Positions 11,118-31,466 of a DNA stretch of 64,000 nucleotides are shown here, piece by piece. The stretch's first letter is position 1, and the number at the start of each line of letters is the position of its first letter. Under the pieces are notes generated by a model. That model did not search any database and was not told the DNA's origin. It saw nothing but the letters and a program-made list of their open reading frames with translations. The position numbers and the translations under genes were made by a program. Source of the stretch: Candidatus Blautia excrementipullorum (GTDB lineage Bacteria > Bacillota > Clostridia > Lachnospirales > Lachnospiraceae); the NCBI GenBank assembly GCA_019118645.1, contig DWYN01000087.1, positions 1 to 64,000 on the forward strand. Reading direction: 5' to 3'.

Positions 11118-12848
11118 TTATGCTTCCAGAATAGGAAGGTGAAAAATAACAGTGGTTCCATATCCTGAAAGGGACAGTATTTTCACGTCTGCCGTATTTC
11201 CATAGAACAGTTTCAGGCGTTCCTTTACGTTATTAAGACCGATGGAGTGGGAAGGGTTTTTCTCCTGATCCCGGCATTGATAAATGTTTTCCAGATGGTT
11301 TTCTGAAATCCCTGTTCCGTTGTCTTTCAGGGAACAGATCAGAATTTCTCCTTTCCGCCGGATGGTGATCCAGATATGGGGATCCGGCCGGCTTTCTTTA
11401 AATCCATGGAATATGGAATTTTCTATAATAGGCTGAAAAAGCATCTTTAAGATTCTGCATTCATATACCGTTTCCCGGACGTAGATATCCATCATAATTT
11501 TCTGGGGTACATGGAGCTGCATAACTTGGAGATATTCTTTCAGATATTCGATTTCTTCCCGAATGGTAAAATGGTCGTCTCCTGATTTCAGAGTTTTTTC
11601 CAGCAGTCTTCCGAAAGAGGAAATGGTATTTGCGACTGCAGTGTCCTTATTCAGAAAAGCCATCCATTTAATGTTATTGAGAGTGTTAAACATCAAATGG
11701 GGATTAATCTGAGACTGCAGGATCATATATCGGAACCTCTCTTTTTCATTTTCCTGCTCCAGAAGCTTTTGCTGCTGAGTCTGCGTACGTTCAAAAAGAA
11801 CAGCCAGCTTTTTTGTCATGTGATTAAAGCTGTTTCCAAGATCTGTCAGTTCATCTTTGGAACGTCCGGAGAACCTGCAGGAAAAGTCTCCTTTTTCCAC
11901 TTTTATCATCAAACTTTTCAAAGTTTGTATCGGCTTTAGAAAAGAATGCAGGATTAGCAGAACCGCAATAATCAGACCGGCAGTTACCAGAAGATCAATA
12001 CCTATAAACAGGCCGCTGTGGGAGACTTCATGATAAAGGACGCTTTTGGGGATCATTGAAACAAAATTCCACCCATTGTAGAGAGAACAGGACAAAATGT
12101 AATTGTCAGAGTGTTCTTTTAAATAAGAATTATAGGGCTGGCCAATCAGGGACTTGTCTCCGGAAGAAATAATTGTTCCATCAGCATCACATAAAAGATG
12201 TACGCTTTCCTGATAAAGGGTTGAGGATCGAAGAATTCGAAACAATTTCTCTTCATCCACAATGAGAATAGCCTTTCCCAGATACTGTTTTTTATAATTT
12301 CGTATATTTTTTCCGATGCACAGGACTTTTTTATCTGAGTCGCCGCCAAGCTCCTGCATGGAAGCGGAAAAATATGTATAATTCAGATCTTTTTCTTCTA
12401 TTTCTTCCAGATACCGGCTGGTCAGGGGAGTTTCCCACACAGCAGGGTCACTGATGTAATAGGTACTGTACGCATAGTGGTCTTTATCCAGAATAAGAAA
12501 ATCTACAGTACAGTAGAAAACATACCTCTGATACTGTGAGGTCAGGTTATCGATGGAGATTGTTGTTTTTAATTCATCGTTAAACGTCTGCTTATCTTTT
12601 TCCAAGGATCTGTAAAGTACGGAGTCTGTAGACAAAAGATTCAGCGTGACACCCATTTCTCTCATAAGGGTTTTTAAGGTATTGTCTACATTTACCACAG
12701 CATTTTGAAATGCAAAATCAGTGTTTTTCAGAAGCTGACTTTCCATCTGCAGCTGAAGTATCATGTTGATCGCCATTACAGGTATGATAACAAAAAGAAG
12801 AATGCAGAGGGTAATTTTAATCTGAAGACTGTGAAGATATTTTTTCAT
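11118..12848 (-). CDS. YesM-type sensor histidine kinase
   Basis: ORF 576 aa; two TM segments, HAMP, LQSQINPHLMFNTLNNIKWMA, C-terminal HATPase GTGISENHLENI. Confidence 0.93.
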   Translation of the reverse strand: MKKYLHSLQIKITLCILLFVIIPVMAINMILQLQMESQLLKNTDFAFQNAVVNVDNTLKTLMREMGVTLNLLSTDSVLYRSLEKDKQTFNDELKTTISIDNLTSQYQRYVFYCTVDFLILDKDHYAYSTYYISDPAVWETPLTSRYLEEIEEKDLNYTYFSASMQELGGDSDKKVLCIGKNIRNYKKQYLGKAILIVDEEKLFRILRSSTLYQESVHLLCDADGTIISSGDKSLIGQPYNSYLKEHSDNYILSCSLYNGWNFVSMIPKSVLYHEVSHSGLFIGIDLLVTAGLIIAVLLILHSFLKPIQTLKSLMIKVEKGDFSCRFSGRSKDELTDLGNSFNHMTKKLAVLFERTQTQQQKLLEQENEKERFRYMILQSQINPHLMFNTLNNIKWMAFLNKDTAVANTISSFGRLLEKTLKSGDDHFTIREEIEYLKEYLQVMQLHVPQKIMMDIYVRETVYECRILKMLFQPIIENSIFHGFKESRPDPHIWITIRRKGEILICSLKDNGTGISENHLENIYQCRDQEKNPSHSIGLNNVKERLKLFYGNTADVKILSLSGYGTTVIFHLPILEA

Positions 12849-13603
12849 GAAGAACCTCCCTGCCGGTAATGATTCGGCGACATACCTGTAGATTTCTTAA
12901 ATACTTTACAGAAATAACCGGTGTCGCTGAAACCTGTCATTTCCGCAATTTCTGCAACAGTGTATCTTTTACTTCCATTCAACAGTTCTTTTGCTTTTGC
13001 AATTCGAAGATCTGAAAGATAATCGCTGAAGGAATGACCTGTTTCTTTTTGAAACAGATAGCTCAGATGATTTTTGCTCATATGAATATGAGACGCAATA
13101 TCAGAGAGAGTAAGATTATCTTTATAATTCATTTCCATATATCTTAAAGCGTCGGCAATGTCTGAACGTATTTTTTTATGAGCGGGAAGATTCTGAACAG
13201 AACTGGAAAGAACATTCTGTTGTTCCTCTGTGATTTTTTGAGCAACATCCTCCATAATTCCGGAAATTTCTTCGGGAGTTGCTGACAGCTTGAGAATGTA
13301 ATCCCGGACTCCTTTTTTGAAGGCATCCCGCACATAGCTGTAGTCTTCGTGACAGCTTAAAATAATAATGTTTGTCTTAATGTTCAGTTCTTCCAATTTT
13401 TGAATCAGTTTCATTCCATCCATTTCAGGCATGATTAAATCCAGAAGTATAATATCAGGAGTATCCTGCAGGATTATATTCAATGCCTCCCGGCCGTTGG
13501 ATGCTTCGCCGATCAGGCGGAGGTGCAGAGATTCCCAGTCAATACAGTTTATGAGTCCGGTACGGACAATAAATTCATCGTCTACAACTAAGACTTTCAG
13601 CAT
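12845..13603 (-). CDS. YesN-type response regulator with AraC HTH
   Basis: ORF 252 aa; receiver domain VLVVDDEFIVRTGL...DIILLDLIMPEMDG; AraC C-terminus GFSDTGYFCKVFKKSTGMSPNHYR. Confidence 0.93.
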   Translation of the reverse strand: MLKVLVVDDEFIVRTGLINCIDWESLHLRLIGEASNGREALNIILQDTPDIILLDLIMPEMDGMKLIQKLEELNIKTNIIILSCHEDYSYVRDAFKKGVRDYILKLSATPEEISGIMEDVAQKITEEQQNVLSSSVQNLPAHKKIRSDIADALRYMEMNYKDNLTLSDIASHIHMSKNHLSYLFQKETGHSFSDYLSDLRIAKAKELLNGSKRYTVAEIAEMTGFSDTGYFCKVFKKSTGMSPNHYRQGGSS

Positions 13604-13845
13604 AAGAACACTCCTTTAAAAATGGAAAAAGGTTTTTCAACATACTATTATTATACATTACTTTTTGGATATTTGACAATAAATACAAAAAGAACGTAAT
13701 ATCTTCCAATTTTTTCGTTATTTTTTTCAAGCATTATAGAAAAGACATAATATTTTACAATTATAACAGATGTTTCTACATTGTAGAAAAAAAGAAAATA
13801 TGTAAGAATAAATTCATCAAATAACAAGAGAAAAGGAGGAAAAGA

Positions 13846-15096
13846 ATGAAAAAAGGGATAAGGAAATTATTGAGCGTAACTTTAAGCGCATGTATGGCGC
13901 TTCCATTTGTTTCAGCAGTACCGGCTGCAGCGGAATCAGAAAAAACAATTCGGGTCTGGTACTGGGAAGACAATGACGGATCCTATGAAGAGGCGTATTC
14001 CACATGGAGTGAACAGTATCCTGACGTAAACCTGGAACTGGAAGCGATTCCGTGGAACAGTTACCATGACACTCTGATTGCAGCGGCCGCTTCCGGGGAT
14101 CTTCCTGATGTATATAAGATTCAGCCCACCTGGATTCCTGAACTGATCAGTCTGGGGGCGGTGGAAGGTCTTGATGAGTACATTGATTCCTGGGAGGAGA
14201 AAGACACCATACCGGAAAGTATGTGGGAATCAGCAAGGGCAGGACAGGAGGAAACTTATGCATGGCCGCACAGTCTTGTGGTTTTGTATCTGTACTGCAG
14301 GAAATCTTATTTTGAGGAAGCCGGACTGGAATATCCGGAGACGATGGATGAATTTTATGAGGCCTGTGAGAAACTTACACAGGATACAGACGGCGATGGG
14401 ACCACAGATGTATATGGATTCAGTATGCGCGGCGCCCGGGGCGGACATTTTATGTGGGCCGGACTGACTTTGAATGCAGGTGTAGATTTCTTTGACAGTG
14501 AAGGGAATGTTACGCTGAACACTCCTGAAATGGTGGAGGCAAATCAGAAGTACCTGGATATTTATTTGAACGGATGGGCGCCTAAGACAGCGCCTACAGA
14601 CGGATATACAGAAATTGTGCAGAATTTCGAGAGCGGCGTTACAGCAATGCTGGTTCATCATCTGAATTCCGCAAAGGAGATTACAGAAGTTCTGGGAGAT
14701 GACGTAGACGTAGTGGCGCTTCCGGAAGGAGCGGCCGGCAGATATCTTCCCAGTGAACCCTGCCACTGGGCTGTTTCATCAAGCAGCGAAAATAAAGAGG
14801 AGGCCGTTGATTTTCTGAAATATTCTACCGGACCGGAGGCGCATAAAGCGCTGTGCCAGAGCGCAGGACTTGTTCCGTTCGTCTCCCCGGTTACGGAAGA
14901 TCCGGAATTTACAGAAGATAAGTTCTGCGCGGCTTCTATGGAATATCTGGATGATGTAAAGACTTTCCCGGTAGTAAATACATTTGGGGACTGGTCGGAG
15001 ACGGTGTGGCCTCAGACTATGCAGAGGGCAATGATGGAAGAGATAGACAGTGCAGAGATGATGGAAATTCTGGCTGACAACTTAGCTGGAGAATAA
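13846..15096 (+). CDS. Sugar ABC transporter substrate-binding protein (CUT1)
   Basis: ORF 416 aa; signal peptide; family-1 extracellular solute-binding protein pattern. Confidence 0.92.
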   Translation: MKKGIRKLLSVTLSACMALPFVSAVPAAAESEKTIRVWYWEDNDGSYEEAYSTWSEQYPDVNLELEAIPWNSYHDTLIAAAASGDLPDVYKIQPTWIPELISLGAVEGLDEYIDSWEEKDTIPESMWESARAGQEETYAWPHSLVVLYLYCRKSYFEEAGLEYPETMDEFYEACEKLTQDTDGDGTTDVYGFSMRGARGGHFMWAGLTLNAGVDFFDSEGNVTLNTPEMVEANQKYLDIYLNGWAPKTAPTDGYTEIVQNFESGVTAMLVHHLNSAKEITEVLGDDVDVVALPEGAAGRYLPSEPCHWAVSSSSENKEEAVDFLKYSTGPEAHKALCQSAGLVPFVSPVTEDPEFTEDKFCAASMEYLDDVKTFPVVNTFGDWSETVWPQTMQRAMMEEIDSAEMMEILADNLAGE

Positions 15097-15102
15097 AATG
15101 CC

Positions 15103-15126
15103 GGGGCTGTGTGAAAATACAGCCCC
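15103..15126 (+). terminator. Intercistronic hairpin between binding-protein and permease genes
   Basis: GGGGCTGT-GTGAAAAT-ACAGCCCC. Confidence 0.6.
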
Positions 15127-15150
15127 CCAAATTTCAGGGGGAATTGCATA

Positions 15151-16047
15151 ATGAAATCAAAAAAGAAATTTGAGTATCAGCCCTATCTTCTTCTGGCTCC
15201 TGCAATCCTGATTGTGGTTCTGATCATCGGATATCCGGTGGTGCGTGCAGTTGTACTGAGTCTGTACAAGTATAATCTTACGGATCTGCAGGGAGTGGAA
15301 TTCGTAGGACTTCAGAATTATATTGATATTCTGACAAATGACCCTGCCTTTTGGCCGGCATTTAAGAATACGGTGATCTGGGTGGGAGTCACTGTGGCGG
15401 CGCAGCTTTTGCTGTCGCTTCTGCTGGCAAATATTCTGAATAAAGCTTTTTTTGGAAGAGGCCTGGTACGGTCCATTGTGCTGATTCCATGGGTGACGCC
15501 CTGTGTGCTGATTTCTCTCATGTGGGCATGGATTTTTAACGGAAATTACGGGGTTATGAATGAAATTTTAAAGAGGCTGCACATAATCAGTGAAAATATT
15601 GCGTGGATTGCGCAGCCGGATACCGCGTTGTGGATACAGATACTCGCCATGATCTGGCAGGGAATTCCGTTTTTCACGATTATGATTCTTGCCGCCATGC
15701 AGTCTGTGCCGAGAGAGCTTTATGAATCTGCCAGTGTGGACGGGGCATCCCGCATTAAACAGTATTTTCATATTACGCTTCCGGGGATTGCCTCCACAAT
15801 TGTATCAACAGTCATGATCCGTCTGATCTGGGTCTTTAATAACGTGGATATTATTTATACTATGACAGGAGGCGGCCCGGGATACAGTTCGCTGACTTTG
15901 TCGGTGTATACCTATCAGCAGGCTCAGAAATCTATGAAGTTCGGCTATGGAAGCGCTGTGGCGATCATTGGAGCAGTATTCATGTCGGCGGTAATTTTTA
16001 TTTATCTGAGACTGACAAGAGAACAGGGAGGTATGATAAGCAAATGA
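15151..16047 (+). CDS. Sugar ABC transporter permease (MalF-type)
   Basis: ORF 298 aa; six hydrophobic segments; EAA loop ELYESASVDGASRIKQYFHITLP. Confidence 0.92.
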   Translation: MKSKKKFEYQPYLLLAPAILIVVLIIGYPVVRAVVLSLYKYNLTDLQGVEFVGLQNYIDILTNDPAFWPAFKNTVIWVGVTVAAQLLLSLLLANILNKAFFGRGLVRSIVLIPWVTPCVLISLMWAWIFNGNYGVMNEILKRLHIISENIAWIAQPDTALWIQILAMIWQGIPFFTIMILAAMQSVPRELYESASVDGASRIKQYFHITLPGIASTIVSTVMIRLIWVFNNVDIIYTMTGGGPGYSSLTLSVYTYQQAQKSMKFGYGSAVAIIGAVFMSAVIFIYLRLTREQGGMISK

Positions 16048-16868
16048 AAGAGAGAAAAAGCATATGGACATTTTATATACCTCTTGTATTTTTTCTGGTA
16101 GTCGTTTTGTTTCCTTTTGCATGGATCTTTCTGACGTCGCTGAAAGAAGAAAAAGAAATGTTTTCTGCAGACTTTCATTTTCTGCCTTTGTCACCTACGC
16201 TGAACAGTTACCGGGAGCTTTTTGAGAAGACGGACTTTCTCCACAATATGTGGAACAGCCTTGTGGTTTCCTTTGCCACCGTACTCATTGCAGGCGTTGT
16301 TTCTTTTCTGGCAGGCTACGCTCTTTCCAGATATCGGTTTAAGATGAGAAATGGACTGATGTATTTCTTCCTTCTGCTTTACCTGGTGCCCAGTACGCTC
16401 CTTTTGATCCCGCTGTATACAATTTTTAATACAATAGGGATTCTTCATACGCAGCTCTGCCTGATTATTGCGTACAGTACATACTCTATACCGTATGCTG
16501 TCTGGCTTACGACAGGATTTATCAACCAGGTGCCCTTTGAGCTGGAGGAGGCGGCTGCCCTGGACGGCTGTAATCTTTTTCAGAGAATGACCAAAATTGT
16601 ACTGCCTCTTTTGCGGCCGGCTATGGTAGCTTCACTCAGCTTTATTTTTATTACTTCATGGAACGAATATACATATGCAAATATGTTTACGAATAAAGAA
16701 TCCAGAACGGTAACGGTTGCCCTGTCAAATTTTATGTCTCAGTATAACATACGGTGGGATTTGATTACGGCAGGAGGAATTATTGTGGTGATTCCGGTAG
16801 TAATCATGTTCGTAATCGTACAGAAGGATTTGATTGCAGGGCTGACTGCCGGCGGCGTGAAAGGTTAG
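16044..16868 (+). CDS. Sugar ABC transporter permease (MalG-type)
   Basis: ORF 274 aa; EAA loop ELEEAAALDGCNLFQRMTKIVLPLLRP. Confidence 0.92.
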   Translation: MKERKSIWTFYIPLVFFLVVVLFPFAWIFLTSLKEEKEMFSADFHFLPLSPTLNSYRELFEKTDFLHNMWNSLVVSFATVLIAGVVSFLAGYALSRYRFKMRNGLMYFFLLLYLVPSTLLLIPLYTIFNTIGILHTQLCLIIAYSTYSIPYAVWLTTGFINQVPFELEEAAALDGCNLFQRMTKIVLPLLRPAMVASLSFIFITSWNEYTYANMFTNKESRTVTVALSNFMSQYNIRWDLITAGGIIVVIPVVIMFVIVQKDLIAGLTAGGVKG

Positions 16869-16879
16869 GTGAGAAGAAG

Positions 16880-17230
16880 ATGAGAAATATGGAGCAGATA
16901 TGCTACATTGTGCATGAACCGGATAATGTTGCAACAGCGATGGCTGATATTTCTCCGGGAAAAATAACTCTTACAGGGGAGTGCGGGAGAGCCGGAAATG
17001 AAATTACGGTTTTTCAGCCCATTCCTTTTGGACACAAGATTGCTCTTTATGATATTGAGGAGGGATCGGAGATAATTAAATACGGGGTCTGTATCGGGAT
17101 TGCCACAAAAAAAATCAGAAAAGGGATGTATGTTCATCTTCATAATATGAAGAGTGCATATGATTTCCGCTCTGCACAGCTGGATCCGGTAACTGCGCAT
17201 GCAAAGGATATTGAATATAAAGTGTACTAG
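16880..17230 (+). CDS. UxaA-family hydrolase small subunit (SAF domain)
   Basis: Short ORF directly upstream of the UxaA-like large subunit; HNMKSAYDFRSAQ; SAF-like composition. Confidence 0.75.
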   Translation: MRNMEQICYIVHEPDNVATAMADISPGKITLTGECGRAGNEITVFQPIPFGHKIALYDIEEGSEIIKYGVCIGIATKKIRKGMYVHLHNMKSAYDFRSAQLDPVTAHAKDIEYKVY

Positions 17231-17241
17231 GAGGGAAAAGG

Positions 17242-18456
17242 GTGAAGGAAGATATTTTGTGTCAGGGATATCAGAGAAAAGACGGATCTAAGGGAATCCG
17301 GAACAAAGTTCTGATTGTATTTACAGTAGAATGCAGTAAACATGTATGCCGGAAAATCGCAGAGCATTTTCAGGATCTCGGAGAGGATGTGGAAACAATA
17401 GGATCCCACTCCTGCCTCCATAATCAGGTGAATATTCGGAGACTTTTGAAATATTGTACCCACCCTAATGTAGGAGGAGTGCTGGCAGTAGGCCATGGCT
17501 GTGAATATACTTATCCGTCCATGCTTGCGAAGGCGGCAGAGAATACCGGAAGAGAGGCCGACTGGTTTTATCAGCAGGAAGCGGGAGGAACTGAAAAAAG
17601 TATTTCCAAAGGAATTTCCACAGTACAGAAGATGCTGGAAAAACTGAAAAAGGTTCCAAGGGTTCCTATGTATATCAGTGATCTTGTAATAGGAGGGGAA
17701 TGCGGAGGGTCTGATTTTACCTCAGGACTGGCCGGAAATGCGCTGGTGGGAAGCGTGTTTGATTATGTCATAGATCAGGGAGGAACAGCGGTATTTGAAG
17801 AGCTGAGCGAGGGAATCGGCCTGAGAGACTATCTTGTAGGACGCGGAGCAGACAAAAAGGTAAAAGAGGACATTGCAAACGCCTATGATAAGACAGTGGA
17901 TTTCTGCTCTGCTTACGGACAGTTTTCTATTGCACCGGGAAATATGGACGGAGGGCTGACAACCATAGAGGAGAAAAGTATGGGAGCTATGGTGAAAAGC
18001 GGAAGACGGCCCATTCAGAATGTGCTGAAAATTGCGCAGACGCCGGTGCGCAAAGGACTTCATCTCCTTGATGTAATTCCGGACGAAAAACTTGAGCCCG
18101 CTCATTTTATTGCGGCGGATCCCTCGGATATGCTTGATCTCATAGCGGCGGGATGTCATCTTGTTTTTCTGGTGACAGGCAGAGGTCATGTGGTGGGAAC
18201 TCCTGTAAGTCCGGTCATTAAAGTTACCGGAAATCCGAGAACATATGAGAAGATGTCAGATGATATTGATTTTTGTGCTGCAGGGCTTCTTGACGGCACT
18301 GAAAAAATGTCCGATATGACACAGCGTATGGTAAGGCTGCTTACAGAGGTATGCAGAGGAAAGCTGAGCAGCGCGGAAAAAATGGGCCATAGAGAAGGGA
18401 TTCTGTATTTCAATTTTCAGGATCCGGTCCGTGTTCCGAAATGCTGGAAGTTTTAA
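17242..18456 (+). CDS. UxaA-family hydrolase large subunit (altronate/galactarate dehydratase-like)
   Basis: GYQRKDGSKGIRNKVLIV, GGECGGSDFTSGLAGNALVG, VTGRGHVVGTPVSPVIKVTGNP. Confidence 0.88.
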   Translation: MKEDILCQGYQRKDGSKGIRNKVLIVFTVECSKHVCRKIAEHFQDLGEDVETIGSHSCLHNQVNIRRLLKYCTHPNVGGVLAVGHGCEYTYPSMLAKAAENTGREADWFYQQEAGGTEKSISKGISTVQKMLEKLKKVPRVPMYISDLVIGGECGGSDFTSGLAGNALVGSVFDYVIDQGGTAVFEELSEGIGLRDYLVGRGADKKVKEDIANAYDKTVDFCSAYGQFSIAPGNMDGGLTTIEEKSMGAMVKSGRRPIQNVLKIAQTPVRKGLHLLDVIPDEKLEPAHFIAADPSDMLDLIAAGCHLVFLVTGRGHVVGTPVSPVIKVTGNPRTYEKMSDDIDFCAAGLLDGTEKMSDMTQRMVRLLTEVCRGKLSSAEKMGHREGILYFNFQDPVRVPKCWKF

Positions 18457-18470
18457 AGTGGAGAAAGAAA

Positions 18471-19370
18471 ATGAAAAAAGAAAAGCTGAAGGGAATTATC
18501 CCTCCCTTAGTAACACCTCTTGACAGGGAGGGAAAGATAGATGAACAATCTTTGGGAAAACTTATCCGTTTCTGTATTAACGGCGGCGTGTCGGGAATTT
18601 TTATACTTGGTTCCTGCGGAGAGGGCTCTTCCCTGACTGCTGTGCAGAAAAGAGCGGCAGTCAGCGCCGCGCTGAAAGCGGCCGGGGGAGAGGTTCCGGT
18701 TTTAGTGGGAGTCCTGGAAACTTCCACAGAAAAGATACTTGAGGAAATAAAAACATATGAGAAAGAAGGAGCAGAATATTTTGTTTCGGCAGTGCCTTAC
18801 TATCTTTCTCCGCAGAACCAGGAGGATATTCTGAGGCATTACCGCTTTCTGGCTGAACATACGGAAGGAAAACTGATTGCCTATAATATTCCGCCCTATG
18901 TGCATTGTGACATACTGCCGGAGACAATGAAAAAAATTCTAGAAATACCGGAAGTAATTGCTGTCAAGGACAGCACAGGGGACTGGAGCCTGTGCCAGAA
19001 AGCCCTGTTTTTGAATCATGGAGGAATTCTCAGCGGGAATGAGGAGCTGTGCGGGGCGGCCATGGCGTTTGGGGCAGAGGGCAGCGTTCCCTGCCTTGCC
19101 AATGCTTATCCGGAGTTTTATTCAAAAATGTACAGATACGCACAGGAAAAAAATATAGAAAAGGTAATAGAATGCCAGAAAGCAATTATTAAAATGAAAA
19201 GAGTGCTTGATTTTTCCAGAAATTGGATTTCCTCGGTAAAGTATCTCTGTGCAAGAAAAGGACTGATTCAGCCGTATACTTCATATGGAATTTCCCCGTT
19301 AAATAAGGCTGAAATAGAGAAAACAGAACAATATCTGAAGGAAAACGAAAAATTATTTATAGGAAAATAG
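18471..19370 (+). CDS. DapA/NAL/KDG-aldolase-family aldolase
   Basis: IPPLVTPLDREGKID, GSCGEGSSLT, AVPYYLSP, AYNIPP, VIAVKDSTGDW Schiff-base Lys. Confidence 0.9.
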   Translation: MKKEKLKGIIPPLVTPLDREGKIDEQSLGKLIRFCINGGVSGIFILGSCGEGSSLTAVQKRAAVSAALKAAGGEVPVLVGVLETSTEKILEEIKTYEKEGAEYFVSAVPYYLSPQNQEDILRHYRFLAEHTEGKLIAYNIPPYVHCDILPETMKKILEIPEVIAVKDSTGDWSLCQKALFLNHGGILSGNEELCGAAMAFGAEGSVPCLANAYPEFYSKMYRYAQEKNIEKVIECQKAIIKMKRVLDFSRNWISSVKYLCARKGLIQPYTSYGISPLNKAEIEKTEQYLKENEKLFIGK

Positions 19371-19473
19371 GCGAAGAGAGCTGAGGACAAAGATTGCTGT
19401 GATTCCTGCGCGGCAATCTTTACGCGTATAATAAAGATTGAAATAGTATAGCAAAATGTGCAAATAATTCCAA

Positions 19474-19737
19474 TTGCAAAACGTTTTACAACAATTATTT
19501 TGCAGTAAAATAGTATGAAAATATAAAAAGTGCACAAAATTAAGAATGAAAAACGTTTGAAAATGCACAAAAAATATTTTTTTGTGAATTTTACATTGAC
19601 AAAACGTTTTTCTAGAAGTATGATATAAACACATTAAACAAGAGACAGGACGAAAGAAAAATTCACATAGTAAAATTGCACAAATTTGGATGGCAGAAAT
19701 TGTGAATTTATTTTTTTCAAAAACAGAAAAACGTTTT
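19474..19737. promoter_or_regulatory. Four-site AAAACGTTT(T) operator array (LacI/CcpA-type)
   Basis: AAAACGTTTT at 19478-19487, 19601-19610 and 19728-19737; AAACGTTT at 19551-19558. Confidence 0.8.
19596..19624 (+). promoter_or_regulatory. Promoter TTGACA-17-TATGAT with operator inside the spacer
   Basis: TTGACA 19596-19601; TATGAT 19619-19624; operator 19601-19610. Confidence 0.8.
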
Positions 19738-19764
19738 ACCAAAAAAGAGCAAGGGAGGTAAATT

Positions 19765-20979
19765 ATGGAAGATCAGAAGAGAATGGCGGAGCAGGCCCTG
19801 GAACAGGGCGGCGGTATCTTGAGACTTACACCTACATGGGTTCCGAGATCCTTCTGCAGACCAGGTAAACGTATTAAACTGCATCCGGATGACTATTTTG
19901 TTTTAGGTCAGCGCGGCGGGATTGATGAGAGATGGTTCTCGTCCACAACATGGGCGGAAAACGGACCGGGAACGCCGGAGGATGAAGGCCTGAGTTATGT
20001 GGCTCTGGACGAAGAAGGAAAAGAGAAAATTCTTCTTCGAGATGTAGTGGACCTTATGGGATCTGAGGTAATCGGTGATTCTCTTTGGAACAAGTACCAT
20101 CGCTGGCCGATGTTTTCAAAATTCTTTGATAATGCCGGTCCCCTCCCGCATCATATCCACCACAGACAGGAGCATGCAGCCAGGATCGGAGCTTCCGGGA
20201 AACCGGAAATGTATTTCTTCCCGGCACAGATGAACAACCATGGAGGAGAATTTCCATTTACATTTTTCGGATTTAATCCTGAGACTACCAAGGAAGAGGT
20301 TCTGGAAGCCCTGAAGAACTTTACAAAGGGCGACAACAAAATTTTATCTCTTTCCATGGCATACAAGCTGGATCTGGATACAGGATGGGATGTGCCTCCG
20401 GGAGTAATGCATGCACCGGGAAGTCTCTGTACATATGAACCGCAGTTTGCTTCCGATGTCTATGCAATGTATCAGTCAGTTCTGATGAACGGACAGATTG
20501 TAGGAGAAGACCTTCTCTGGAAAAACACTCCTGAGGAAGAAATCGGAAATTACGAATATCTTCTCGATGTGATCGACTGGGAACGCAATGTGGATCCTGA
20601 GTTCCATAAGAACCGCTTTATGAAGCCGATTCCTGTAAGACCGGAAGAGGAAATGAAAGCGGATGGATATATGGAAGAGTGGATCTGCTATAAATGCGAA
20701 ACAGTCTGTGCAAAGAGGCTTACAATTCTTCCGGGACATACGGTGACTATCAAAGACAGCGCTCCTTACGGTCTGATCTGTCTGGAAGGCCACGGTACCT
20801 TCGGCAAATGGGAAATCGAATCCCCGGCGCTGATCCGTTACGGAGAGCTGACACACGATGAGTATTTTGTCACTGAGAAAGCGGCAAAGGAGGGTGTGGT
20901 TATCACAAACCCGTCTCTTACAGACCCGATTGTAATTCTGAAACATTTCTCAGAAAACCCGGATCTTGTAATAAAATAA
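19765..20979 (+). CDS. Bicupin protein, putative sugar isomerase (paralogue 1)
   Basis: ORF 404 aa; RIKLHPDDYFVLG, PLPHHIHHRQEHAARIGASGKPEMYFFP, DVPPGVMHAPGSLCTYEPQ; same domain pattern as 26407-27708. Confidence 0.8.
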   Translation: MEDQKRMAEQALEQGGGILRLTPTWVPRSFCRPGKRIKLHPDDYFVLGQRGGIDERWFSSTTWAENGPGTPEDEGLSYVALDEEGKEKILLRDVVDLMGSEVIGDSLWNKYHRWPMFSKFFDNAGPLPHHIHHRQEHAARIGASGKPEMYFFPAQMNNHGGEFPFTFFGFNPETTKEEVLEALKNFTKGDNKILSLSMAYKLDLDTGWDVPPGVMHAPGSLCTYEPQFASDVYAMYQSVLMNGQIVGEDLLWKNTPEEEIGNYEYLLDVIDWERNVDPEFHKNRFMKPIPVRPEEEMKADGYMEEWICYKCETVCAKRLTILPGHTVTIKDSAPYGLICLEGHGTFGKWEIESPALIRYGELTHDEYFVTEKAAKEGVVITNPSLTDPIVILKHFSENPDLVIK

Positions 20980-21003: not shown

Positions 21004-22512
21004 TTGGCAGGCAAATATATACTGGAAGCCAAAGGGATTGACAAATCTTTCTCCGGAGTAACTGTTCTTAAAGGAGCGGAGCTGTGTATTGAACCTGGAG
21101 AGCTTCATGCGCTTATGGGTGAAAACGGTGCAGGAAAATCCACTCTGATGAAGATTATCATGGGGATTTATACCAAGGACGCTGGAAAGGTTATTCTGGA
21201 AGGACAGGAAGTGAACTTCAAATCTGCCAGAGAGGCGTTGGACGCGGGAATTTCCATGATCCATCAGGAACTGAGCCCTATTCCGGAAATGACAGTTGCT
21301 GAGAATGTATTTCTTGGCAGGGAGCAGAAAAAAATAAAAGGTCTTCCTTTTGTTGATAAGAAGGAACTGAACCGGAAAACACAGGAGCTCCTGGAAGAAT
21401 ATGACTTAAGTGAATACATTAAACCGAACATGAAAATGAAGGATCTGAACATTGCTCAGATTCAGATGATGGAGATTATTAAGGCGGTATCCTATAACTC
21501 AAAAGTCATTATCATGGATGAGCCTACTTCATCTCTTTCAGAAAAAGAGACAGAAACCCTATTCCGCATCATTGCCAATCTGAAAGAGAAAAAGGTTGGT
21601 ATCATTTACATCTCCCACCGTATGGAGGAAGTGTTTGAGCTGGCAGACAGAGTTTCCGTGCTTCGTGACGGACAGTTTATCGGCTGTGTGAAGGTTGCCG
21701 ATGCGTCCAGAGAACAGCTGATCAACATGATGGTCGGACGTGAACTGGAAGGCGGTTATCCGAGTAATACGGCCGAGAAGGGCGAAGTTGTTCTGGAACT
21801 TAAGAATTTCACCAGAAAGGGCGTCTTTAAGAATGTAAATCTTCAGGTTCACGCCGGAGAAATCCTTGGTATGGCCGGACTGGTAGGAGCCGGACGAAGC
21901 GAGGTAATGAGAGCACTGGTGGGCTACGATAAACTTGATTCCGGAGAAATTATTCTGGAAGGCAAGAAGATCGAGATCAAGCATCCCAAGGATGCCATCA
22001 AGCATCATATTATCATGGCTTCTGAGGACAGAAAACAGCTTGGCCTGGTACTCTGCAGAAACATCAAAGAAAATGTTTCGCTTCAGAATTTTGACAAGAT
22101 GTCAACCGGAAGCTTTATTAACAAAGTAAAAGAGATTCAGCTTGCGAAGCAGTACACAGAAGAGATGTCCACAAAGATGAATGGCATCGGGGATCTGGTA
22201 TCCAGTCTTTCCGGTGGTAACCAGCAGAAGGTGGTACTTGCAAAATGTCTGATGTCTGACCCGAAGGTGCTGATCATGGATGAGCCTACCAGAGGTATCG
22301 ACGTAGGAGCAAAAGCAACGATCTATAATATCATGATTAACCTTGCGAAACAGGGTATTGCGATCATTATGATTTCTTCGGAAATGCCGGAACTGATCGG
22401 CATGAGCGACCGGGTGATCGTTATGGCCGAAGGTGAAGTAAAAGGCGAGCTGGTGGGTGAGGAAGCGAAATCCCAGCAGACAATCATGAATCTAGCGTTT
22501 GGAGGAGAATGA
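21004..22512 (+). CDS. Ribose/galactose-type ABC transporter ATP-binding protein (RbsA/MglA-like, duplicated ATPase)
   Basis: ORF 502 aa from TTG; Walker A GENGAGKST, signature LSGGNQQKV, Walker B VLIMDEP. Confidence 0.94.
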   Translation: MAGKYILEAKGIDKSFSGVTVLKGAELCIEPGELHALMGENGAGKSTLMKIIMGIYTKDAGKVILEGQEVNFKSAREALDAGISMIHQELSPIPEMTVAENVFLGREQKKIKGLPFVDKKELNRKTQELLEEYDLSEYIKPNMKMKDLNIAQIQMMEIIKAVSYNSKVIIMDEPTSSLSEKETETLFRIIANLKEKKVGIIYISHRMEEVFELADRVSVLRDGQFIGCVKVADASREQLINMMVGRELEGGYPSNTAEKGEVVLELKNFTRKGVFKNVNLQVHAGEILGMAGLVGAGRSEVMRALVGYDKLDSGEIILEGKKIEIKHPKDAIKHHIIMASEDRKQLGLVLCRNIKENVSLQNFDKMSTGSFINKVKEIQLAKQYTEEMSTKMNGIGDLVSSLSGGNQQKVVLAKCLMSDPKVLIMDEPTRGIDVGAKATIYNIMINLAKQGIAIIMISSEMPELIGMSDRVIVMAEGEVKGELVGEEAKSQQTIMNLAFGGE

Positions 22513-22513
22513 A

Positions 22514-23461
22514 ATGACACAGAAAAAAGACATGGGTAAAATTCTGAGGCAGTTTGGCCTTGTATTTGTAGCCCTTATTATCATTATCTTTATGAGCATT
22601 ACGTCAGACGTATTTCTGACCAGTCAGAATATCATCAATATTCTGAGACAGATTGCAATTAATGGTATTCTGGCAGTTGGTATGACCTTCGTTATCCTGA
22701 CCGGCGGCATTGATCTTTCCGTAGGCTCCGTAGTTGGTATCACAGGTGTTATTGTCGGTTCCTTTCTGCAGAACGGTACAAATTGGGTTCTGGCAAGCCT
22801 TATAGCACTGGTAATTTCCATTATCTGCGGTATCATCAACGGATGGCTGATCGCCTACATCGGATTCCAGCCGTTTATCGCTACACTTTCTACCATGACA
22901 ATCGGAAGAGGTTTCGCGCAGGTTTGGTCCGATGGAAAACCGTACATGATTTCAGACGAATCATTTAAGCAGATTGGACAGGGTTCCTTCCTCGGTATTC
23001 CGATTCCGATTTTTCTGCTGGTAATCTTTTGCGTGATCGGTCTTGTTATCCTGATGATGACTACCTTCGGACGTTATGTATTCGCAATCGGCGGCAACAT
23101 GAGCGCAGCAAAACTTTCCGGTGTCCGCACACAGAGAATTCAGACCATGGTATATGTATTCTCCTCCATCTGTGCATGGATGGCAGGTCTGATTTTGGCA
23201 GCTCGTATCAGTTCCGGACAGCCCAATGCAGGTGAGTCTTACGAAATGGATGCTATCGCAGCTACGGCAATCGGCGGAACAAGTATGAACGGCGGTATCG
23301 GTTCCCTGACAGGAACAATCATCGGTTTCATTATTCTGGGTCTTCTGCAGAACTCCATGAACCTGATGAACATCAACTCTTTCTGGCAGCAGATTGTAAA
23401 AGGTATTCTGATCATTGTGGCAGTATTCCTGGATATGAGAACAAAGGGCAAGAAGAATTAA
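22514..23461 (+). CDS. Ribose-type ABC transporter permease (RbsC-like)
   Basis: Hydrophobic ORF; VILTGGIDLSVGSVVG, ATAIGGTSMNGGIGSLTGTIIG. Confidence 0.94.
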   Translation: MTQKKDMGKILRQFGLVFVALIIIIFMSITSDVFLTSQNIINILRQIAINGILAVGMTFVILTGGIDLSVGSVVGITGVIVGSFLQNGTNWVLASLIALVISIICGIINGWLIAYIGFQPFIATLSTMTIGRGFAQVWSDGKPYMISDESFKQIGQGSFLGIPIPIFLLVIFCVIGLVILMMTTFGRYVFAIGGNMSAAKLSGVRTQRIQTMVYVFSSICAWMAGLILAARISSGQPNAGESYEMDAIAATAIGGTSMNGGIGSLTGTIIGFIILGLLQNSMNLMNINSFWQQIVKGILIIVAVFLDMRTKGKKN

Positions 23462-23557
23462 GTCTATAGTTTTTACAAATAGAAAATTTTATAAAGTGAA
23501 ATTTAATATCACTGCGATATTAAAAAATAAAACTCATTTAAGTAAGGAGGAACAAAA

Positions 23558-24730
23558 ATGAAAAAACAGGTTATCGGTACTTTACTGGCAGTATCAATGG
23601 TAGCATCAATGGGAGCTGTAAACACAGTAAGCGTAGCAGCAGAGGACAACTCCGACATCACTATCGGATTTTCTTCCAAGGATAATTCCGATATGTTTGT
23701 TGCAGCTATTGCAGACGCTGCTGAGGCAAGAGCAGAGGAGCTGGGCGTAGAGCTTCTGGTATATGATGCAGGCGGCGATGTAAACAAACAGATCAGCGAC
23801 TGCGAGACTCTTCTGGCCTCTGGCGTAGATGCACTGATCGTTATTCCGCAGAGTGTAGAAGGAAGTGCTCCTGTTGTAGGAATGGCAAATGATGCAGGTG
23901 TTCCGATCGTTGTTGACAATGGAGATATCGCTGATACAAACTATACAGCATTCGTAGGATGCACTGACCAGGAATCCGGAGAGCTTCTCGGAACATGGTT
24001 TATTGAGAAATCCGGCCTTAAGGAAGGCGACAAAGTTGCCATCATTGAGGGACCGATGGGACAGTCCGGACAGGTTGGACGTATGGCAGGATTTGAGGAA
24101 GTCGGACTTCTTGACTACTTTGATGTAGTTGCAACCCAGACTGCAAACTGGAAGAGAGACGAAGCTATGGCTCTTGCAGAAGACTGGATCACCACTTACG
24201 GCGACGAGCTGAAAGCAATCATCTGCGAGAACGATGATATGGGTATGGGCGCTCTGGCAGCAGCACAGGCAGCAGGACGCGACGACATCATCATCGGCGG
24301 CGTTGACGGACTTGAAGATGCAGTTCAAGCAGTTGCAGACGGTACATATGGCGTAAGTATTCTTCAGGACTCTGAGGGACAGGGCTCTGTTGGTGTTGAC
24401 GTAGCTATGCAGATCATCAACGGCGAAGACTATGAAAAAGACACAAGAATCCCATTCCACACCATCGATGCAGACAATGTAGAAGCTTATCTTGAAGGCG
24501 GCTTAGAGGCAATTTCTGATGACGCGGCAGCAGAAGACGCAGCAGCTACAGAAGAAGCAGCAACAGACGATGCGGCAGCAGCAGATGATGCAGCAGCTAC
24601 AGAAGAGACAGCAGACGACGCGGCAGCAGCAGATGACGCAGCAGCAGAAGATGACGCAGCAGCAGAAGAGACAGCAGACGACGCGGCAGCAGAAGACGAT
24701 GCAGCAGCTGAGGAAGAAGCAGCAGAATAA
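23558..24730 (+). CDS. Ribose-type ABC transporter substrate-binding protein (RbsB-like) with acidic Ala-rich C-terminal tail
   Basis: ORF 390 aa; signal peptide; type-1 periplasmic-binding fold; last ~70 aa only A/D/E/T. Confidence 0.92.
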   Translation: MKKQVIGTLLAVSMVASMGAVNTVSVAAEDNSDITIGFSSKDNSDMFVAAIADAAEARAEELGVELLVYDAGGDVNKQISDCETLLASGVDALIVIPQSVEGSAPVVGMANDAGVPIVVDNGDIADTNYTAFVGCTDQESGELLGTWFIEKSGLKEGDKVAIIEGPMGQSGQVGRMAGFEEVGLLDYFDVVATQTANWKRDEAMALAEDWITTYGDELKAIICENDDMGMGALAAAQAAGRDDIIIGGVDGLEDAVQAVADGTYGVSILQDSEGQGSVGVDVAMQIINGEDYEKDTRIPFHTIDADNVEAYLEGGLEAISDDAAAEDAAATEEAATDDAAAADDAAATEETADDAAAADDAAAEDDAAAEETADDAAAEDDAAAEEEAAE

Positions 24731-24766
24731 TCAATATAGAAAACAGTTTAAGACCTGATTGACAAG

Positions 24767-24823
24767 AGCAAGGCACCGCGGGCAAAGATATACATGATAA
24801 GGACTTTGCTGCGGTGCCTTGCT
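24767..24823 (+). terminator. Strong intercistronic hairpin after the binding-protein gene
   Basis: AGCAAGGCACCGC..GCAAAG / CTTTGCTGCGGTGCCTTGCT, followed by CCTTTT. Confidence 0.75.
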
Positions 24824-24878
24824 GACCTTTTACCGGCACCTGTGCCGAAATAACAGCAGAACAGAAAGGATTGAAACC

Positions 24879-25307
24879 ATGCTTAGAAATATACCGAAAA
24901 TTCTTCCTCCTGAACTGGTAAAAACCATGATGGAGATGGGCCATTCCGACGTACTTATTATTGCGGATGCCAATTTCCCGGGAACAGCACATGCAAAAAA
25001 AATCATCCGTATGGACGGAATTATGATTCCGGAGCTTCTGGAGGCAATACTGCAGCTGTTTCCTCTGGATAATTTTATTGACAATCCGGTTCGGCTGATG
25101 AGAAACCTTCCGACAGAACCGGTTCCGGAAATCTGGGATACTTACAGAGAACTTCTGAACAAATATGACAAAGATGACGCATTCCATGAGTTTGACTTTA
25201 TTGACCGCCTTCCCTTCTATGAAGTGGCGGAGAAAGCTTATGTAATCGTGCAGACTGGCGACGAATCCCGCTATGGAAATATCATTCTGCAGAAAGGAAT
25301 ATGCTGA
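24879..25307 (+). CDS. RbsD/FucU-family mutarotase
   Basis: MLRNIPKILPPELVKTMMEMGHSDVLIIADANFP. Confidence 0.92.
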   Translation: MLRNIPKILPPELVKTMMEMGHSDVLIIADANFPGTAHAKKIIRMDGIMIPELLEAILQLFPLDNFIDNPVRLMRNLPTEPVPEIWDTYRELLNKYDKDDAFHEFDFIDRLPFYEVAEKAYVIVQTGDESRYGNIILQKGIC

Positions 25308-25313
25308 GACTTT

Positions 25314-26351
25314 ATGAACTACCAGAATGAAAAAAAATATATCGGCCACAAAGACCAGCTGATGAAGGTAAAGAGAATCAAAATGCAGGAAGGCAAGGCC
25401 AGCGGAGTTGATATGATTGACGTACAGAACCGCTCCGGTATGCATTTTGATGTAAATGTAAGCCGTGGAATGGATATTCCGTATCTGGATTTCTGCGGAG
25501 AAAATGTCGGTTTTATTTCTCCCTGCGGCGTGGTGGCTCCGGAATATTTTGACGACAAGGAGCTGGGATTTCTGAAAAGCTTTACTGCAGGCTTTCTTAC
25601 TACCTGCGGTCTGAAGGCGGCAGGGGCTCCCTGCGAATATGAGGGAACCGCCTATGGACTTCACGGAAATCTTTCTCATACGCCGGCGGAAGACGTAAGC
25701 TGCAGAATTGTGGAGGACGGTGAGGTGCCTGCTGCAGTCATCCGGGGAACAGTCCGTGACGCGGTGATTTTCGGAGATAAAATGACTCTGGAAAGAGAAA
25801 TCAAATGTTTCTATAAAGAACGGAAATTTACACTTCATGACAAGGTGACGAACGATGGATATAAAAAAGTCCGCCAGATGATTCTCTATCACTGCAATAT
25901 CGGTTATCCGATTCTTACGCCGGACAGTGAAATCTATATCCCTTCTCTGGAAGTGAAAGCCCGCAACGCACATGCTCAGGAGGGAATTGACAGCTGGATG
26001 AAACTCCAGGAGGCAGATCCCGACTATGAAGAGATGTGCTATTACCATAAACTGAAACCGGATGAAAATAATCATGCAACAGCTGCGATCTATAATCCGG
26101 AATTAGAGCTTGGAATAGCCATTGAAATAGATCTGAGCACACTGGATCATTTCGTCCAGTGGAAGATGATGGGCGCCGGAGACTATGTGATGGGTCTGGA
26201 ACCCGGCAACTCCACCATTGACGGAATTGAGGACGCAGTAAACAACGGATCCATGAAATATCTGGAACCGGGAGAAAGCAGAGAATATCAGCTTACCTTC
26301 CACATCCTCAAAGGCAGGGAGAGCTTTGAAAAAATAAAGAAAAAACCCTGA
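25314..26351 (+). CDS. DUF4432 / aldose-1-epimerase-like protein
   Basis: ORF 345 aa; NVSRGMDIPYLDFCGENVGFISPCGVVAPEYFD, YGLHGNLSHTPAE. Confidence 0.85.
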   Translation: MNYQNEKKYIGHKDQLMKVKRIKMQEGKASGVDMIDVQNRSGMHFDVNVSRGMDIPYLDFCGENVGFISPCGVVAPEYFDDKELGFLKSFTAGFLTTCGLKAAGAPCEYEGTAYGLHGNLSHTPAEDVSCRIVEDGEVPAAVIRGTVRDAVIFGDKMTLEREIKCFYKERKFTLHDKVTNDGYKKVRQMILYHCNIGYPILTPDSEIYIPSLEVKARNAHAQEGIDSWMKLQEADPDYEEMCYYHKLKPDENNHATAAIYNPELELGIAIEIDLSTLDHFVQWKMMGAGDYVMGLEPGNSTIDGIEDAVNNGSMKYLEPGESREYQLTFHILKGRESFEKIKKKP

Positions 26352-26406
26352 ATACGATGTATACTAGTAAGAGCTATAGAGCAACAGAAAACAGGAGGTA
26401 TGAAAG

Positions 26407-27708
26407 ATGACAGAAAAAGAATTAATCATGAAAGCCGGCGAGGAGCTGGATGCAAAACTCGCTGAGGCAAAAAAGACAGGAAATCTTGTAGTAAAGGACG
26501 CGACAGAAGATGAGAGCGTAATCCGTTCTACTTTTGAAAAGGGAGAAGGAATCTTCCGTCTGTTCCCGGCATTTGTACCGAGAAGATTCGGCAAAGCAGG
26601 ACACAGACTGAAACTTCATCCGGATGATTACTTCGCATTCGGAATGGCAAGAGGCTCCATCACAGAGCGCTGGTTTGCTTCCACAATTGCTGCACAGAAC
26701 GGAGAAACTGCAAAGGCTGACGAAGGTATGGCTTATGTATGTGTAGACTACAACAGCGATGAGAAATTCTCCTTAAGAGATGCGGTAAAGGTTCTTGGCG
26801 CAGAGCTGGTTGGAAAAGAGCTTATGGATAAATACAACGGATGGCCGATGTATTCCAAATTCTTTGATAATGAGAACCCGCTGTTCCACCATCTGCACCT
26901 GGGATTCGAAGATGCTGCCAGAGTAGGAAAACTGGGCAAACCGGAAAACTACTATTTCCCGAAACAGCTGAACAACTATTTCGGTGAAGCAAACTATACA
27001 TATTTCGGATTTGACCCGGATGTAGATCCTGAAGAGATCAAAGAGAGAATCCGTCATTTCGCAGATGACGATACAAGAATTACAGAGCTCTCCAGAGCAT
27101 ACAGAGTTGAGCTTGGCACAGGCTGGTACACACCGGCAGGCGTTATCCATGCACCGGCTTCTGTTCTGACCTATGAGCCGCAGTGGAACTCCGATGTAAA
27201 CTCCGTATATGAGAATATCGTATCCGGCGAGGTTTATCCTCCGGAAATGCTGGATGAAGAGCTTCCGGAAGACAAGAAGACAGTAGAGGATGTATTCAAA
27301 CTTCTTGACTGGGAGAAGAACGTAGATCCGCATTACAAGAAACACTACTTCCGCAGACCAATCGTGGAGACAGAAACCGATCAGTATGTTCAGAAATGGA
27401 TCACCTATGCAAACCCATATATCGCTGCAAAAGAGCTGACCGTATATCCGGGACAGACTGTAACGATTAAAGACGGAGCTGCTTATGGATGTATCTTCAT
27501 TCAGGGCCATGGAAAATTCGGCGTATATGCAGCAGAAGCTCCGACACTTCTTCACTTTGGCCAGCAGAGCACAGATGAATTCTTCGTTTCTGAAAAAGCT
27601 GCAACAGACGGCGTTACGATTACAAACATCAGCCCTGTAGAGCCTCTCGTTGTTCTGAAACACTTCGGACCGAACTGCCCGGGTGTTCCGCAGGAAGTTG
27701 CTGAATAA
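26407..27708 (+). CDS. Bicupin protein, putative sugar isomerase (paralogue 2)
   Basis: ORF 433 aa; RLKLHPDDYFAFG, PLFHHLHLGFEDAARVGKLGKPENYYFP, YTPAGVIHAPASVLTYEPQ. Confidence 0.8.
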   Translation: MTEKELIMKAGEELDAKLAEAKKTGNLVVKDATEDESVIRSTFEKGEGIFRLFPAFVPRRFGKAGHRLKLHPDDYFAFGMARGSITERWFASTIAAQNGETAKADEGMAYVCVDYNSDEKFSLRDAVKVLGAELVGKELMDKYNGWPMYSKFFDNENPLFHHLHLGFEDAARVGKLGKPENYYFPKQLNNYFGEANYTYFGFDPDVDPEEIKERIRHFADDDTRITELSRAYRVELGTGWYTPAGVIHAPASVLTYEPQWNSDVNSVYENIVSGEVYPPEMLDEELPEDKKTVEDVFKLLDWEKNVDPHYKKHYFRRPIVETETDQYVQKWITYANPYIAAKELTVYPGQTVTIKDGAAYGCIFIQGHGKFGVYAAEAPTLLHFGQQSTDEFFVSEKAATDGVTITNISPVEPLVVLKHFGPNCPGVPQEVAE

Positions 27709-27747
27709 TCAATTCTGAGCCTCCGAAAGGGCAGGCTTTGATGCAGG

Positions 27748-27795
27748 CAGCCCAGGATACTCCTCCCTTTTTCTATGTATTCTGGGCTGATTGTT
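27748..27795 (+). terminator. Terminator after bicupin gene 2
   Basis: CAGCCCAGGATAC...GTATTCTGGGCTG followed by a T-rich tract. Confidence 0.65.
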
Positions 27796-27906
27796 TCTTT
27801 ATTATTTCATGGGAAGGCAGTATAATTTTTATACAGAAAGCGGAAGAGAATATCTTTCTGCCGCTGCATAATACTGTGAAATAAGTTTAGAGAAAAGGAG
27901 TAAAAC

Positions 27907-29421
27907 ATGAAATATTTACTGGGAATTGATAATGGAGGAACTTTCTCCAAGGCAGCTATTTTTGATGTGGACGGAAATCAGATTTCCGTGGCAAGCGTTC
28001 CCACAGTCACCCTTACGCCAAAGCCGGGATATACAGAAAAGGATCTGGACGAGCTTTGGGAAGTAAATGCGCAGGCAGTTCGGAATGCCATTGAAAAAAG
28101 CGGGATTGATCCGAAGGATATTGCGGGAGTTTCTTTTTCCGGCGCGGGAAAAGGTCTTTATATGATCGGCTACGATGGAAAGCCCTCCTACAACGGAATC
28201 ATGTCAACAGATACGAGAGCCTGGGCGCAGGTAGAACAGTGGTATAAAGACGGAACCAATAAAAAGGTTTATGAAAAAACCTTCCAGGAAATCCTGGCTG
28301 TTCAGCCGGTAAGCCTTCTGGCATGGTTCAGAGACAATCAGCCGGAAGTTCTGAAAAACACGAAATATATTTTTGCAGTAAAGGATTATATCCGTTATAT
28401 GCTTACCGGAGAGGCCTACAGTGAATATACAGACTGTTCCGGCGGAAATCTGGTAAACATGGTTACAAAACAGCATGACAGAGAACTGATGGCGCTTTAC
28501 GGCCTGGAAGACTGCTATGAAAAGCTTCCGCCTCTGAAATATTCCGCAGAGATCTGCGGCCATGTAACAAAAGAGGCCAGTGAGAAGACGCTCCTTCCGG
28601 AGGGAACTCCGGTGGCAGCCGGAATGTTTGACGTCAATGCCTGCGGCATTGCTTCCGGTCTGTCAGACGAAGAGCAGATGTGCATGATTGCCGGAACCTG
28701 GAGCATCAATGAATTTATCAGAAAGACGCCGGTAACCAACGGTACTGTGGCTCTGAATTCCATGTTCTGTATGCCGGGATATTTCCTTATTGAGGAGAGC
28801 AGCCCCACATCCGCAGGAAACATGGAGTGGTTCATCCGGAACCTGATGAATTACGAGAAGGAAGAAGCCAAGGCAAAAGGCGGCTCTGTATATGACATCA
28901 CAAACGAGTGGGTGGCATCTATTGAGCCTCAGGACTGCAATGTGATCTTCCTGCCGTTTTTGAACGGATCCAATGAAGACGCTCTTGCCAAGGGAACCTT
29001 TGTGGGTCTGACGGCTTACCATAATAAAAAACATATGCTTCGCGCAGTATATGAGGGAATTGTATTTTCACATGTGACGCATGTAAAGAAACTGCTCAGA
29101 AACAGAGAGGTGCCCAAGAGCATCCGCCTTTCCGGAGGCGCGGCAAATTCGGACGTATGGGTGCAGATCTTTGCGGACGCTCTTCAGATTCCCATTGACG
29201 TAGTCGGCGATAAAGAGCTGGGAGCTCAGGGAGCGGCTATGGCAGCGGGAATTGCGGCCGGTATCTACAAAGATTATCAGGAAGCCATAAGCAGGACGGT
29301 GCATATTACCAAGACTGTAAATCCGCGTCCGGAATATAAAGAGATTTATGAAGAAAAGTATGCAACTTACCGTGCAGTAATCGACGGGCTGAGCAAAGCG
29401 TGGGAACATTTTAAAAATTAG
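27907..29421 (+). CDS. FGGY-family carbohydrate kinase, LyxK (L-xylulokinase)-like
   Basis: ORF 504 aa; LGIDNGGTFSKAAIFD; resembles E. coli LyxK along its length (SFSGAGKGLY, PVSLLAWF, AEICG, GMFDV, SPTSAGNMEWF, LPFLNGSN). Confidence 0.85.
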   Translation: MKYLLGIDNGGTFSKAAIFDVDGNQISVASVPTVTLTPKPGYTEKDLDELWEVNAQAVRNAIEKSGIDPKDIAGVSFSGAGKGLYMIGYDGKPSYNGIMSTDTRAWAQVEQWYKDGTNKKVYEKTFQEILAVQPVSLLAWFRDNQPEVLKNTKYIFAVKDYIRYMLTGEAYSEYTDCSGGNLVNMVTKQHDRELMALYGLEDCYEKLPPLKYSAEICGHVTKEASEKTLLPEGTPVAAGMFDVNACGIASGLSDEEQMCMIAGTWSINEFIRKTPVTNGTVALNSMFCMPGYFLIEESSPTSAGNMEWFIRNLMNYEKEEAKAKGGSVYDITNEWVASIEPQDCNVIFLPFLNGSNEDALAKGTFVGLTAYHNKKHMLRAVYEGIVFSHVTHVKKLLRNREVPKSIRLSGGAANSDVWVQIFADALQIPIDVVGDKELGAQGAAMAAGIAAGIYKDYQEAISRTVHITKTVNPRPEYKEIYEEKYATYRAVIDGLSKAWEHFKN

Positions 29422-29438
29422 AAAAAGGGGTAAAAGTT

Positions 29439-30410: not shown

Positions 30411-30474
30411 TCCGTTTCGATTTTGCCGGCGTAAGCCAGTGTTTTAAATTCATAGATCAAAGCAGGAGAGCAGT

Positions 30475-31317: not shown

Positions 31318-31392
31318 AGACAGCAGAACTCAGAGATTGATGGAAGATTCTGAGATGCATGCGGCGGACGGTGCCGAAATCTCAGATACAAC

Positions 31393-31421
31393 TTGGCTTT
31401 CGGAGGCAACAAGTATATAAT
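31393..31421 (+). promoter_or_regulatory. Internal promoter TTGGCT-17-TATAAT before the AraD-like gene
   Basis: TTGGCT 31393-31398; TATAAT 31416-31421. Confidence 0.6.
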
Positions 31422-31466
31422 AGAATACAGGAGCATCCGAAAATCATTTGTAAAGGAGAAAGAAAA

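Follow-up and report, generated by a model that had tools for sequence, protein, structure and literature searches.

Upstream of bicupin gene 1 (19765-20979, forward strand), the first gene of an operon in the 64-kb stretch of Blautia DNA analysed here (the window), a short CG-centred palindrome occurs four times, which raises the question of which protein reads these sites and how they could control the operon. The site positions of the original prediction were exact: AAAACGTTTT is present at 19478-19487 (O1), 19601-19610 (O3), and 19728-19737 (O4), and AAACGTTT at 19551-19558, where the 10-bp form of the site is AAAACGTTTG (O2, 19550-19559); none of the four is assigned to a strand. With centres at 19482.5, 19554.5, 19605.5, and 19732.5, the spacings are 72, 51, and 127 bp, as predicted. 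The window contains four matches to AAACGTTT against 1.12 expected, a count reached by no shuffle, and all of them fall within 19479-19736. For the intergenic region alone (394 bp, 28.9% GC), a first-order Markov model gave a mean of 0.06 copies of AAACGTTT, and none of 20,000 runs produced three or more. The proposed scan for further copies, carried out on the 3.43-Mb assembly (89% complete), located AAAACGTTTT at eight places; three are those of the array, the sole intergenic copies, and the other five lie within coding frames.

The array surrounds a predicted sigma-70-type promoter on the forward strand (19596-19624), in which TTGACA (19596-19601) and TATGAT (19619-19624) are separated by 17 bp and match the consensus at 11 of 12 positions. 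One operator had been placed inside this promoter, and it is: the first A of O3 doubles as the final base of the -35 box and the remainder occupies the spacer, the extended 16-bp site covering 19598-19613. Relative to the predicted transcription start, the operators are centred at approximately -149 (O1), -77 (O2), -26 (O3), and +101 (O4), the last of these being the downstream operator, with the ATG 32 bp further on. In an alignment of 12 Blautia genomes, TTGAC of the -35 box is invariant and column identity in the -10 box is 0.87. A search of Rfam over 19370-19800 returned no match up to E=1, and thus no known leader RNA is found in this region.

Cupin 1 is encoded in 12 of 64 Blautia genomes (E <= 1e-160), and all 12 genomes carrying the operon have AAAACGTTTT sites upstream of it. 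The array also appears before the equivalent bicupin/Rbs-type operon in Robinsoniella, Hespellia, Diplocloster, other Lachnospiraceae, and Treponema; several genera have just one or two sites. Column identity across the 12 Blautia upstream regions was 1.0 for O4, 0.86 for O2, 0.79 for O3, and 0.52 for O1, the least conserved site, which is about equal to the background of ~0.50, although a copy at the O1 position was found in most of the 12. O1, O2, or O3 is missing in some Blautia genomes. The distance from O1 to O2 is 71-72 bp where O1 is present, that from O2 to O3 is 51-53 bp where both are retained, and that from O3 to O4 is 113-129 bp, with 170 bp in one species. The symmetrised consensus of 72 sites, AGAAAAACGTTTTTCT, is an even, CG-centred palindrome of ~16 bp and has the form of a LacI-family operator; CG-centred even palindromes account for 1173 of 1303 motifs of this family (PMC4052901).

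The LacI-family regulator encoded at 10015-11091 (forward strand; LacI 10015) had been named as the obvious candidate, and Pfam domains, synteny, co-occurrence, and the recognition helix all point to it as the probable binder of O1-O4. The protein (Pfam LacI, 2.5e-18; Peripla_BP_3, 1.5e-32) combines helix-turn-helix and sugar-binding domains, and its gene is linked to the operon; these features, phylogenetic footprinting, and regulator co-occurrence are those by which LacI-type regulons are recognised. An orthologue is encoded in exactly the 12 Blautia genomes with cupin 1 and in no other of the 64 (E <= 1e-100). In other species it adjoins the cupin operon or sits inside it, in support of the assignment: in five related genomes lacI immediately precedes cupin 1, with an additional site before lacI in one of the five, and it is found within the operon or at its end in Hespellia and Treponema parvum. 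In the lineage of the window, an 8.3-kb cassette (11118-19370) separates lacI from the cupin operon. The cassette, present in one set of Blautia species only and absent in others, encodes a histidine kinase, an AraC-type response regulator, an ABC transporter, altronate/galactarate-dehydratase-like (UxaA/GarD-like) pieces, and a DHDPS-family aldolase. Its AraC-type two-component regulator (12845-13603) was rejected as a candidate binder because, in several genomes that have the array, it is not found near the operon.

Regulator and operon form one cluster, which accounts for part of the co-occurrence within Blautia; the rearranged and unlinked loci are the stronger evidence. At these loci the array accompanies the LacI 10015 orthologue rather than the cupin gene. 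Where operons are rearranged, the sites stand before the first gene after the promoter: cupin 2, beside LacI, in Diplocloster; rbsA at L070, L121, and L124; cupin 1 at L122 and L123; and lacI at L126. No AAACGTTT was found upstream at 21 cupin-1 loci without the array's LacI nearby (L063-L085 except L070 and L083; three have short upstream sequence, and L063 is the second copy of Robinsoniella). Robinsoniella and Diplocloster each carry an extra cupin-1 copy outside the control region, and these copies have no perfect site. The recognition helix ISTVSNVLN is kept in the LacI orthologues, with single substitutions in three, and is absent from the other LacI-family proteins of the genome. One further LacI homologue (52%, locus L125) has the same helix, but within 20 kb of it neither the operon nor a perfect site occurs. 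This homologue weighs against the assignment, as do the cassette that separates lacI from the operon and the lack of O1, O2, or O3 in some Blautia genomes. The array following the LacI orthologue, the near absence of the cre-type G described below, and a recognition helix unique in the genome make the assignment of O1-O4 as operators of LacI 10015, drawn from sequence comparison, well supported.

The original prediction had also offered CcpA as a binder, and this part did not hold. CcpA belongs to the same superfamily, the CG-centred A/T-rich palindromes look like cre boxes, and the genome encodes LacI-family proteins with CcpA-like TVSRV helices (L039, L040). However, a cre box (WTGNAANCGNWNNCA) has TG/CA flanks and a G at -6 (counting the central C as -1), whereas the array lacks TG...CA flanks and this G, which lies five positions ahead of the central C, is found in 1% of half-sites in the 72-site set, which argues against CcpA. 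Many carbon-metabolism sites would be expected for cre, whereas no intergenic AAAACGTTTT occurs elsewhere in the genome, the distribution is that of a single operon, and the sites, absent from the 21 loci above, follow the local LacI instead. In LacI-positive Blautia, 25 of 30 matches to GAAAAACGTTTT fall in the array, so that the regulon looks limited to one operon. CcpA is thus disfavoured, and it is very improbable that the sites are cre boxes placing the operon under general catabolite repression. Literature searches for CcpA cre sites in Lachnospiraceae, and for the motif string together with LacI, found no paper in the library covered.

Among named profiles and structures, those of RbsR and PurR of E. 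coli come closest to the 10015 protein. The RbsR profile matched at 2.3e-67, with 227 bits against an equivalog cut-off of 531 bits, and the best structures were RbsR (9ny7, 1.3e-51) and PurR (2.9e-48). Identity with either was rejected, as the scores are far under the curated equivalog cut-offs; the E. coli regulators also differ from the 10015 system in helix residues and operator flanks.

The genes that this regulator would control extend from bicupin gene 1 through the rest of the predicted operon (21004-32162, forward strand), whose order is kept across Blautia. This part encodes an RbsA/RbsC/RbsB-type ABC transporter, a FucU mutarotase, a DUF4432 protein, bicupin 2, an FGGY kinase, a GFO/IDH/MocA oxidoreductase, an L-ribulose-5-phosphate 3-epimerase, and a class II aldolase (AraD-type); the Rbs-type transporter and AraD names come from reading the translations rather than from a profile search. 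The RbsB-type substrate-binding protein has a long C-terminal low-complexity tail rich in Ala, Asp, and Glu (24460-24730). The two bicupins (19765-20979 and 26407-27708) are paralogous, 48% identical, and neither belongs to a Pfam or NCBIfam family. Cupin 1 had no sequence match in Pfam, NCBIfam, or the PDB; its AlphaFold2 model (pLDDT 82) resembled phosphomannose isomerases, the best Foldseek match being 1zx5 (E 1.2e-14, TM 0.58 on the query and 0.76 on the target). This modelled fold indicates that the label of bicupin was right and makes a role as a sugar isomerase plausible. Cupin 1 is accompanied by an FGGY kinase, an L-ribulose-5-phosphate 3-epimerase, and an AraD-type protein, and one may reasonably guess that the pathway leads from a rare pentose or ketose to D-xylulose 5-phosphate. 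The spirochaete Treponema parvum (L060, NZ_CP054257.1) possesses the operon, with cupin 1 at 81% identity, LacI at 55%, and matching operators, which suggests that the operon and its regulation were transferred jointly between phyla.

With high probability, LacI 10015 is a local repressor of this single operon that acts on O1-O4 by promoter occlusion at O3, with O1, O2, and O4 as auxiliary sites. Operators embedded between -35 and -10 recur in Blautia and at loci L061, L070, L121, L123, and L126, and an operator in this position is known to compete directly with RNA polymerase (PMC7804116); together, these observations favour occlusion. We infer binding, the sign of regulation, and the effector as follows. 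As long as the sugar (or sugar-phosphate) effector is absent, O3 would be occupied by a repressor dimer, which would cover the -35 box and the spacer and block access of RNA polymerase to the promoter. O4, O2, and O1 would co-operate by raising the local concentration of repressor, and O4 could additionally be a roadblock. The effector would be a compound of the bicupin/kinase/epimerase pathway, either its substrate or an intermediate; it would free the repressor from DNA, and the transporter and enzymes would then be switched on.

That LacI 10015 binds, yet only O3 and O4 matter while O1 and O2 are decaying or minor, is a less probable reading: O1 is at background conservation (0.52 vs 0.50) and O4 is invariant, O2 is degenerate at L130 and L083, and several genera have no more than one or two sites. 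O2, however, keeps its column identity of 0.86, and O1, where present, stays 71-72 bp from O2. The number of sites and their spacing also bear on looping, in which the repressor would bridge phased operators and repress in the manner of LacI tetramers or of GalR with HU; we regard this as unlikely. The original prediction read the spacings as close to 7, 5, and 12 helical turns; the spacings themselves are correct, but phasing at the array locus did not reach significance (R=0.80 at 10.5 bp, p=0.066; p=0.24 with a free period). Blautia intervals do gather near whole turns (R=0.69 at 10.5 bp, p=0.009, from nine collapsed intervals, which were collapsed by hand and are non-independent), and the lengths of O1-O2 and O2-O3 are retained though much of the intervening sequence diverges, which may stem from a second motif between the sites. 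Against looping, 13 intervals from other genera gave R=0.45 near antiphase, with half-turn spacings of 26, 36, 110, and 185 bp, and phasing across all genera pooled was absent (p=0.78); a family-wide phasing was rejected on these grounds. The LacI orthologues, in an alignment judged by eye, carry a short C-terminal APEDWxLSDW-like tail that is free of leucine heptads, and they have no LacI-type tetramerisation tail. GalR loops DNA without the tetramerising C-terminal helix of LacI.

The E. coli gal system (GalR OE/OI, PMC4693257), in which looping has been demonstrated, is a related known case. Both systems have at least two operators flanking a promoter and a repressor that is probably dimeric, and the O3-O4 distance of 113-129 bp among the four sites here is near the 113 bp of the gal loop. 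In gal, repression is seen at spacings of 103, 113, 123, and 133 bp but not at 108, 118, or 128 bp (PMC4693257). The array has 113-117 and 126-129 bp in Blautia and 118 bp in Treponema, a range that includes spacings at which gal repression is abolished, and, judged by the gal spacings, its 127 bp in the window is out of phase. The systems differ further in that one operator here directly overlaps the -35/-10 region and in that the array is not known to require HU. PurR, a close homologue, shows no loop-type gain (PMC7804116).

The second motif consists of inverted half-sites, TKCACAA / TTGTGMA, upstream of -35 (19521-19588, no strand assigned), with further copies at 19676-19683 and 19700-19706. 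Across 13 Blautia promoters, 37 half-sites were counted against 2.6 expected (largest shuffle 10), an enrichment that overstates independence because the Blautia species are related. Their offsets from -35 are fixed in Blautia at -75/-65, -32, -14, +81, and +104. CRP and Rex were considered as binders, but the half-site spacing would fit neither. A LacI-family gene (C178:8845) was considered because of a similar palindrome upstream, and was rejected since it is absent from the other 63 Blautia genomes (E <= 1e-60). That palindrome, TAGTGCATAATGCACAA (G000:C178:8738-8754, L138), lies ~100 bp upstream of the gene and is perhaps its own operator. Perfect GAAAAACGTTTTTC palindromes occur in Blautia without LacI 10015 (G049:C280:6834, G057:C18:39486, G010:C115:1414, G010:C173:12541, G048:C21:5925) and are perhaps operators of other LacI-family proteins. 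An arrangement in which dimeric LacI-family repressors on the four operators and a second factor on TTGTGMA/TKCACAA fold the Blautia promoter region, with near-whole-turn spacings kept there and other genera doing without, is conceivable and appears quite improbable.

Close counterparts of the array are the local LacI-type regulogs described by Ravcheev et al. 2014 (PMC4052901), which share with this locus an even 16-bp palindrome centred on CG, a single sugar operon as target, a regulator gene that adjoins it in relatives, and sites within ~300 bp of the start codon. Four sites are rare among them: the survey lists 116 regulated operons with three adjacent sites but just five with four (PMC4052901), a multiplicity that is uncommon yet not without precedent. 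Over three quarters of local LacI regulators control their own gene (PMC4052901), whereas no operator site was found upstream of lacI 10015, which counts against the assignment; at L055 and L126 there is one before lacI. The array is an ordinary type of switch with unusually many sites.

For an uncharacterised sugar pathway that includes two unclassified bicupins, these results thus name the regulator, its precise operator, and the one operon that it is predicted to target. The assignment covers Blautia and, via the same operator, the spirochaete Treponema parvum. The natural variation in site number and spacing between genera provides a test case for auxiliary operators of repressors without a LacI-type tetramer tail.
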